DNA of 64,000 nt from Paenibacillus alginolyticus DSM 5050 = NBRC 15375 (lineage in GTDB: Bacteria; Bacillota; Bacilli; Paenibacillales; NBRC-103111), in assembly GCF_000422905.1 (NCBI RefSeq), contig NZ_AUGY01000035.1, forward strand, positions 1-64,000. The letters run 5' to 3'. Made by a program: the position numbers and the translations under genes. Of this stretch, positions 50,744-58,635 are shown in pieces (positions within the stretch are counted from its first letter, which is position 1; every line of letters starts with the position of its first letter). The notes under the pieces were generated by a model that was not told the DNA's origin, made no database searches, and worked only from the letters and a program-made list of their open reading frames with translations.

Positions 50744-50786
50744 GAAAAAAAGAGCGGACACGCTAGAAAACGCGCGTTGCTCTTTT
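50744..50786 (-). terminator. Riboswitch expression platform: intrinsic terminator
   Basis: AAAGAGC pairs with GCTCTTT around an inner ACGCG/CGTGT stem, and seven T residues follow on the minus strand. It directly follows the ZTP aptamer and precedes rpiB by about 70 bases. Confidence 0.85.
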
Positions 50787-50861
50787 GCCCAGGCGACCGG
50801 CCGTATAGCTCAATGCTCCACTGTGGTTACTCCCACTCGTCGCCAGTTACATTGAGTCTTG
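50787..50861 (-). promoter_or_regulatory. ZTP (pfl) riboswitch aptamer
   Basis: On the minus strand the RNA has P1 strands CUCAAUG (50850-50856) and CAUUGAG (50809-50815), the conserved UAACUGGCGA, a GUGGGAGUAACCAC hairpin, GUGGAGC, and the terminal CGGCCGGUCGCCUGGGC that forms the pseudoknot region. These are the conserved elements of the pfl motif that senses ZTP/ZMP, intermediates that build up when 10-formyl-THF is low. The terminator downstream should be relieved by ligand, turning on rpiB-ywlG-glyA. Confidence 0.9.
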
Positions 50862-57609: not shown

Positions 57610-57621
57610 AGCCTGAAGGCT
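57610..57621 (-). terminator. Short intrinsic terminator after the PilZ gene
   Basis: The stem AGCCT/AGGCT is followed on the minus strand by eight T residues. It overlaps the end of the coding region. Confidence 0.65.
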
Positions 57622-58354
57622 ATTGATTCGCCGCAGACTTTTTTTCCGTTGCTTTTTTAAATTGCGCTTCCCGCTTCTGTACGAAGTAAGTTTCGATCTG
57701 ATTGGTAAGGATAAACCCCCTTAAAGCATTGGTTTTTCCCTGCGGTATGTCGATATAACTGGCCCCATAATAAAAACCATTATCAACCTTTTCTTTTCTT
57801 ACAATTTCCATCGAACAAGGCATCGTAAAGCCCAAATCCAGCTCGACTTCAAGTTGCGAATGCTTTTGAACGATTTTATCAATCATAGCATTATCATTTA
57901 TGGTAAATCCTAAGCCGTTAATGGATATATTTTTAATTGAGATGCCAAGCGGGTTTTCAAATTGATGTTTATTCCTTTTGTTCATATCCTGAAGCCCGAA
58001 TAAGAGACCTGTATGTTTCACATCCACACGTGGGAATTCCCGTTTTTCTGCGAATTTCTTCCGATTTTCAGGTGGATTAATGACAATGACGGAGCCGAAT
58101 TCTTTGGCAACAACGGTTGTATTCATCACAAACAAGCCGGATTTGGTGTAAACCGTCATTTTCGCTTTATCACCAAGTTGAAAAACATCGTATTCCGGTA
58201 GTTCCACCTCAATAATGTCTCCGAGTGCATAGGTTAGCACGCCCGTGGCTACGAAATCGTCCTTTCCCAACACAGCCTTACTATCGATCAGCACATCAGC
58301 GTCATATCCCTCCTTGCTTCCGTAATATTTCATGACGTTATACCCTTTGGCCAT
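57620..58354 (-). CDS. PilZ-domain c-di-GMP effector (YcgR/flagellar-brake type)
   Basis: About 244 residues: an N-terminal YcgR-like beta domain (residues 1-95) and a C-terminal PilZ domain. The c-di-GMP contacts are intact: an RxxxR motif in KREFPRVDVKH and the (D/N)xSxxG motif in IKNISINGLGF. It should slow the flagellar motor or act on another c-di-GMP output. The ATG at 58354 follows GAGGTG by nine bases. Its own leader carries a c-di-GMP-I riboswitch, so c-di-GMP is sensed both in the mRNA leader and by the protein. Confidence 0.88.
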   Translation of the reverse strand: MAKGYNVMKYYGSKEGYDADVLIDSKAVLGKDDFVATGVLTYALGDIIEVELPEYDVFQLGDKAKMTVYTKSGLFVMNTTVVAKEFGSVIVINPPENRKKFAEKREFPRVDVKHTGLLFGLQDMNKRNKHQFENPLGISIKNISINGLGFTINDNAMIDKIVQKHSQLEVELDLGFTMPCSMEIVRKEKVDNGFYYGASYIDIPQGKTNALRGFILTNQIETYFVQKREAQFKKATEKKSAANQ

Positions 58355-58400
58355 TATAATTAACACCTCTCCCTTTACCCAAGTTGTTCCCTATATAAAA

Positions 58401-58430
58401 ATAGACTGCCCCTTATGTAGGAGCAGCCTA
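58401..58430 (-). terminator. Riboswitch expression platform: intrinsic terminator
   Basis: On the minus strand GGCTGCTCC pairs with GGGGCAGTC, followed by TATTTTTA. It lies between the c-di-GMP-I aptamer and the PilZ start codon. Confidence 0.8.
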
Positions 58431-58454
58431 TTACCTTAATCAATAAAGTATCGA

Positions 58455-58543
58455 TTTTCGGTAACCAGGCTGCCATAGTTCCAATGGAACCGTAGACCCT
58501 CAGCTTTGCGTCCTTGCTTTTCAACAAGTTTGCCATTTTCGAA
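58455..58543 (-). promoter_or_regulatory. Cyclic di-GMP-I (GEMM) riboswitch aptamer
   Basis: On the minus strand the RNA contains the conserved GGCAAAC, GAAAAGCAAGGACGCAAAGC, GGGUCUACGG, AUGGCAGCCUGGUUACCG order of the GEMM-I motif. A terminator follows directly, suggesting ligand-controlled transcription of the PilZ gene downstream. Direction of control cannot be told from sequence alone. Confidence 0.93.
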
Positions 58544-58606
58544 CCTTGCTATCTTATTTCTACCTATCACGTTCTATATGGTCTAAAAGACCTACTAATA
58601 TCTATC

Positions 58607-58635
58607 ATTATACCTAGCCCAGATGCTATTATCAA
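58607..58635 (-). promoter_or_regulatory. Sigma-A promoter of the PilZ gene
   Basis: On the minus strand TTGATA and a perfect TATAAT are exactly 17 bases apart. The transcript would begin about 55 bases before the aptamer. Confidence 0.78.

Follow-up and report, generated by a model that had tools for sequence, protein, structure and literature searches.

The window analysed here (64,000 nucleotides of contig NZ_AUGY01000035.1 of Paenibacillus alginolyticus DSM 5050) carries on its minus strand what is probably a c-di-GMP-I riboswitch of the OFF type placed on the gene for a YcgR-like PilZ receptor, the two forming an incoherent, self-limiting feed-forward circuit. Specifically, at low c-di-GMP the freshly made 3′ strand of the aptamer would pair with the upstream half of the terminator, and the resulting antiterminator would permit read-through and synthesis of the receptor; at high c-di-GMP the closed aptamer would retain its own 3′ strand, the terminator would form and synthesis would stop. 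The PilZ protein probably binds c-di-GMP as well and is presumably activated by it, such that the messenger would lower the amount of the receptor and probably raise its activity. Cells would be primed with receptor while the messenger is scarce, and their response would be limited or timed once it rises. A sequence-only reading of this DNA had proposed that one messenger would set how much effector is present as well as how active it is, in a feed-forward or buffering arrangement. The double sensing in that proposal is well supported; with the sign now read as OFF, the arrangement would be incoherent and limiting rather than reinforcing, provided that c-di-GMP activates the protein.

On the minus strand the order of elements is promoter, c-di-GMP-I aptamer, terminator and PilZ gene (Table 1). 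All of the elements that the sequence-only reading had placed before the gene are present, with positions 58401–58635 running from promoter to terminator. The neighbouring genes, assigned by reading, are a divergent tadA and, on the strand of the PilZ gene, ychF and prfA. Scans of the window for promoters and terminators return numbers near chance (4 promoter-like sites vs 3.0 in shuffled sequences, and 3 terminator-like sites vs 1.9), but the promoter and terminator at the PilZ locus are both conserved in relatives. All 29 same-genus rows of the leader alignment have a promoter of the same form 5′ of the aptamer, as does L082, and it is absent in L083; by the same loose pattern it is found at 56 of all 64 aptamer–PilZ loci.

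Table 1. Elements of the PilZ locus, in window coordinates
Feature	Position	Strand	Basis or remark
Sigma-70/A-type promoter, TTGATA-17-TATAAT	58607..58635	−	pattern scan, 11/12 positions
Short inverted repeat GGTCTTTTAGACC, just 3′ of the putative transcription start	58580..58592	−	possible 5′ stem-loop or operator
c-di-GMP-I (GEMM-I) riboswitch aptamer	58457..58544	−	RF01051, 83.8 bits, E 4.9e-15
Antiterminator arm 1 GGCAGCCTGGTTACC, P3 3′ strand plus ligand-contact CC	58460..58474	−	
Spacer hairpin separating the two antiterminator arms	58438..58456	−	fold
Antiterminator arm 2 GGTAATAGGCTGCTCC, common to the terminator 5′ arm	58420..58435	−	
Intrinsic terminator stem-loop: 14 pairs, 5-base loop, then T-rich run	58400..58432	−	scan
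Likely ribosome-binding site GGGAGAGGTG	58364..58373	−	by reading
Gene for the PilZ-domain receptor, 244 aa, with an ATG start chosen by reading	57620..58354	−	

The short inverted repeat, a few bases after the inferred start of transcription, may be a 5′ stem-loop or a gene-specific operator. A GGTCTT-like element lies at a near-fixed distance from the promoter at 27 of 29 same-genus loci and at L082, and in the loci of this comparison the distance from start to aptamer varies from 37 to 97 bases. At L080 both arms of the repeat have changed and pairing is kept, and the first 35 bases of the transcript fold slightly better than shuffled sequences (mean z −1.6, 30 loci). A shared operator was considered and rejected: genome-wide, the window copy is the only exact match and one further site has a single mismatch, vs six matches for the reversed control.

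The assignment of the aptamer is firm. When the whole window was searched with cmscan, the match to the GEMM-I model covered positions 1–87 of 87 and lay well above the gathering score of 35, bearing out this element of the sequence-only reading. The position that distinguishes c-di-GMP from cGAMP, G20 in Vc2 numbering, is a G in the window aptamer, at 58534, and the CC within arm 1 of the antiterminator presumably contacts the ligand, as in the Vc2 structures. A GAAA tetraloop is present, with a receptor strand of CUACGG (consensus CUAAgg). The RNA presumably binds c-di-GMP. Among the 64 PilZ-linked aptamers of the family, 61 have GGCAAA at the specificity site, two (L096 and L105) have A at the specificity position, and one is off pattern; separately, the aptamers of L089 and L121 are called as the GGC variant, RF03167.

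The protein downstream likewise has the features of a c-di-GMP receptor. Its PilZ domain (PF07238) scores 29 bits against a Pfam cut-off of 22.5, and the RxxxR and NxSxxG motifs, which the sequence-only reading had described as intact, are both in place as REFPR (residues 105–109) and NISING (residues 142–147); 33 aligned members show no variation at R105, R109, S144 or G147, and conservation of N142 is 90% or more. The protein probably binds c-di-GMP through this domain. The structural model (pLDDT 84.7, pTM 0.75) predicts a two-domain YcgR-like fold, with an N-terminal barrel and a PilZ barrel, followed by a long C-terminal helix (residues 205–243). The PilZ domain resembles c-di-GMP-bound PilZ structures, matching Alg44, MrkH, YcgR and others at Z 12.8 to 13.5 and 1.9 to 2.6 Å, and MapZ at Z 12 to 13 and 4.4 to 4.6 Å; the N-terminal part matches YcgR-N at a Z of only 6.8. 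The best overall fold match is MotI/DgrA of B. subtilis (Z 14.5 over 184 residues, rmsd 15.2), a match in which the individual domains of the model agree and their arrangement differs.

That likeness does not extend to orthology. Neither the protein nor its family profile has a sequence match in the PDB at E values up to 1, and no match to PF12945 was found in the protein, leading us to reject it as the MotI/DgrA/YpfA orthologue; the evident relative is encoded elsewhere in the genome, at C1:85109, which matches YpfA/MotI at E 1.4e-14 and also PF12945, and which has no class I aptamer adjoining it. The sequence-only reading had set the circuit on motility, a claim that finds no support here, as it is C1:85109 and not the window gene that carries these matches. 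Because the protein is not an evident YpfA orthologue, any role in motility is a guess.

Were the protein active in its apo form, an OFF switch would create a coherent double lock confining its action to low c-di-GMP, an arrangement that accords with an expression platform that reads OFF. However, the well studied YcgR-like receptors are active in their c-di-GMP-bound form, and we consider a double lock unlikely.

The sign of the switch is read from the relationship between the aptamer and its expression platform. The two arms listed in Table 1 are complementary and would form a 14-pair antiterminator that takes up the 3′ strand of the aptamer on one side and the 5′ arm of the terminator on the other. 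In predicted structures and pair counts, aptamer and terminator occupy separate stretches and can form together, and the antiterminator excludes both. As the 3′ strand of the aptamer is itself an antiterminator arm, c-di-GMP should favour the terminator, and the leader should be a transcriptional OFF switch in which the messenger causes termination, a sign in vivo that is deduced from structure. The possibility of an ON switch, a coherent feed-forward in which c-di-GMP would increase the PilZ protein in amount and in activity alike, is allowed by the wording of the sequence-only reading and has a precedent in Vc2, described as a class I “gene-on” switch (PMC12564702), but the compatibility of aptamer and terminator, together with the use of the aptamer 3′ strand as an antiterminator arm, makes it very improbable.

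An alignment of leaders argues that the antiterminator is a conserved structure. The alignment contains 31 rows, 30 of them distinct, of which 29 (the window included) are from the genus and two, L082 and L083, are from other genera. In the 30 distinct rows, 97.6% of the 420 cells of the antiterminator are standard pairs, vs 26 to 51% for versions of the helix that were slid along the sequence; the terminator stem is 95.7% paired in the same leaders. Variation confined to one side is seen at four of the 14 antiterminator pairs, and three have changed on both sides (shuffled mean 0.7, with 2 of 500 shuffles as high), and at L070 both strands are altered at two pairs with pairing kept; the seven that never vary carry no covariation information. 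Hence the OFF reading is well supported within the genus, and it is consistent with what is seen elsewhere. An automatic helix test was applied to all loci, and in only 27 of 62 it found a helix at p 0.05 that overlaps the terminator 5′ arm; the best helix falls on that arm in 56 of 62, with the terminator visibly mis-chosen in some loci and none found at L086, L097 or L125. The duplex energy between the 3′ end of the aptamer and the platform was rejected as a means of discriminating own from swapped pairs: own and swapped pairs have −25.4 and −25.3 in other genera and −24.9 and −24.4 in the same genus, and z lies below −2 in 22 of 64 own pairs. Since any G-rich arm will pair, we judged this measure too coarse and used the pair count from the alignment instead.

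Calculated energies describe how such a switch might operate. In a transcript extending 38 bases past the aptamer, the antiterminator state is predicted at −41.7 kcal/mol, vs −27.9 kcal/mol without pairing between aptamer and platform. Once the complete terminator has been transcribed, the terminator state is best, at −50.8 kcal/mol, with aptamer and platform folded apart at −47.5 kcal/mol, such that with the full terminator present the equilibrium fold in the model is the terminator even without ligand. This suggests that the switch could be leaky or mostly off; ligand that holds the aptamer together would free the terminator, which points to an OFF switch under kinetic control. The same calculation could describe a constitutive attenuator or a poorly responsive switch, with an aptamer that binds c-di-GMP and expression that hardly changes, and such behaviour is reported for Bc1, a class I switch of B. 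thuringiensis, which binds c-di-GMP and hardly responds in vivo (PMC11218506). We regard this as quite unlikely for the window leader, since the aptamer, antiterminator and terminator are jointly conserved across the genus, with some pairs changed on both sides, and a plain attenuator does not need such joint conservation.

It is informative to ask how closely the RNA and the protein have travelled together. The PilZ protein was found in 77 of 104 family genomes searched, and 64 of these 77 have an aptamer immediately upstream that reaches the gathering score; all 64 share the strand of the gene and lie 86 to 240 bases from the start codon as chosen (median 104). One of the 64, at L091, is weak at 39.5 bits. 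The surroundings are shared, with a divergent tadA at 73 and ychF in the orientation of the PilZ gene at 62 of the 77 loci, and named relatives of the PilZ gene at 84 to 98% identity are from Paenibacillus. No aptamer was found, even by a permissive scan, at 12 loci (L058, L084, L093, L094, L100, L102, L104, L122, L123 and L126–L128), of which L126–L128 are distant homologues. Eight family genomes (L084, L093, L094, L100, L102, L104, L122 and L123) have the syntenic gene with both motifs and no detectable aptamer, which counts against the proposed circuit; L084 and L104, by reading, keep an apparent terminator. L058 is the same sequence as the named locus L050, from the close relative Paenibacillus sp. 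Soil787; it lacks about 290 bases, a gap that opens within the −35 box and closes shortly after the start codon, and the gene has stops. A further locus, L125:1879-1938 (−), has a 60-base remnant of an aptamer running straight into a shortened PilZ gene and appears as a decaying copy of the locus; it scores 40.4 bits, above the gathering score, and as a remnant was left out of the riboswitch count.

The phylogeny of the proteins (76 sequences, with L058 and L125 omitted and that of G189 added) fits a single old association of aptamer and gene followed by several losses. The presence of the riboswitch requires five changes on the tree, vs a mean of 10.5 when labels are shuffled (0 of 500 as low), and well supported branches force three of them. 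L122 and L123, which lack the aptamer, fall outside the clade whose members carry it, and its gain may therefore postdate the gene. Outside the family, G189 has a PilZ member that is 36% identical with an 87-bit aptamer upstream, and no match to tadA or ychF on the stretch examined. When the family profile was run against 398 genomes of the class at E 1e-20, nine matched: that of the window, G189 at 1.7e-74 and a further seven, none of them better than 1e-31, with no aptamer at the loci of those seven (L134–L140). Pairing of class I aptamers with PilZ genes as a general rule was rejected: in 17 riboswitch-rich genomes of the class, where 150 aptamer and 54 PilZ matches were compared by eye, the only adjacent same-strand pair is that of G189, a member of the same PilZ family. 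At G241:C3 an aptamer points away from one PilZ gene, and on the strand of the aptamer an 875-aa frame with a PilZ match follows some 1.3 kb on, with two short frames between; an operon joining these is possible. Taken together, double sensing by RNA and by protein, as first proposed from the sequence, is well supported by sequence and conservation, with both partners expected to bind c-di-GMP.

The locus sits within a wider c-di-GMP network. In the genome, which measures 8.33 Mb with an estimated contamination of 6.19%, there are 24 c-di-GMP-I aptamers and six PilZ matches, all above cut-offs, and 39 GGDEF matches, 38 of them above; the window aptamer is the only one of the 24 that lies directly before a PilZ gene. 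Five precede GGDEF-EAL genes (C72:26291, C53:5917, C94:25372, C7:142609 and C9:43801), and C2:136572 lies some 4 kb before a GGDEF-EAL-PilZ gene on the same strand, with two genes between; the product of that downstream gene (L018, G000:C2:130126-131769) has its PilZ match at the C-terminus. Other targets, the list covering part of the 24, are response regulators (one followed by FapA and one by an HD gene), GTP cyclohydrolase I, a transglutaminase-like gene, a subtilase 444 bases on, a pair of sigma-like (below cut-off) and RsgI-like genes, and a YjfB-like motility gene. The aptamers at C7:134796 and C94:25372 have A at the specificity position and that at C129:14025 has C, and these could recognize other ligands such as cGAMP. 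Among the PilZ proteins, L014:1399-2679 (−) on G000:C4 joins a 3-hydroxyisobutyrate-dehydrogenase-like NAD-binding protein to a C-terminal PilZ domain and may be a c-di-GMP-controlled metabolic enzyme. The window itself holds a second riboswitch, of the ZTP class (50780-50860 (−), 56.2 bits), upstream by reading of rpiB, a ywlG-like gene and glyA.

If the OFF switch and an activated receptor operate together, the amount of loaded receptor follows from multiplying one curve that falls by another that rises; in a simple illustration (assumed constants, no leak, single-site binding) the maximum lies at the geometric mean of the two binding constants. This invites the tentative speculation that, if the affinity of the aptamer for c-di-GMP is far higher than that of the PilZ domain, the locus is a dedicated band-pass, or pulse, device: the effector would respond to the beginning of a messenger rise and not to the level reached, and the family would have kept RNA and protein as a unit. 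Loaded receptor would then peak at intermediate or rising messenger and drop when the messenger is high and sustained. Constants of 1 nM (Vc2) and 840 nM (a PilZ domain from E. coli) are quoted in PMC12564702; were such values to apply here, the response would be transient or band-limited.

The RNA and the protein receptors for c-di-GMP are commonly viewed as separate, parallel routes; at this locus the two act in series on a single gene, with a sign that can be read, and most of the family genomes examined that carry the gene retain the arrangement. This makes the locus a compact, testable case of a second messenger that limits or times its own effector, and it marks an uncharacterised PilZ protein as worth study in Paenibacillus and its relatives. 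Both components, class I switches of the OFF type and PilZ receptors, are already known, and what we rate as new is the circuit that joins them. A search of the open-licence PMC literature, a scope that leaves aside the founding GEMM gene tables (Sudarsan 2008; Weinberg 2007), found no case of a PilZ receptor under a conserved OFF switch of class I; class I switches before genes for c-di-GMP synthesis, breakdown and signalling are reported generally (PMC7266159).

Comparison with known systems is instructive on both the RNA and the protein side. In Clostridioides difficile, Cd1, a class I switch 5′ of the flgB operon, terminates transcription in response to c-di-GMP (PMC6366702); the window switch has an aptamer of the same class and the same sign, reported for Cd1 and predicted here, but Cd1 controls flagellar genes, whereas the target here is a probable c-di-GMP receptor protein. 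The protein shares with MotI/DgrA (YpfA, 5VX6) a predicted two-domain fold and the RxxxR and NxSxxG motifs, and differs from it in having neither a YpfA sequence match nor PF12945 and in its predicted C-terminal helix. Within the same genome, the aptamers before GGDEF-EAL genes likewise have c-di-GMP acting on its own network; those targets make or break the messenger, whereas the PilZ target of the window is a receptor for it.
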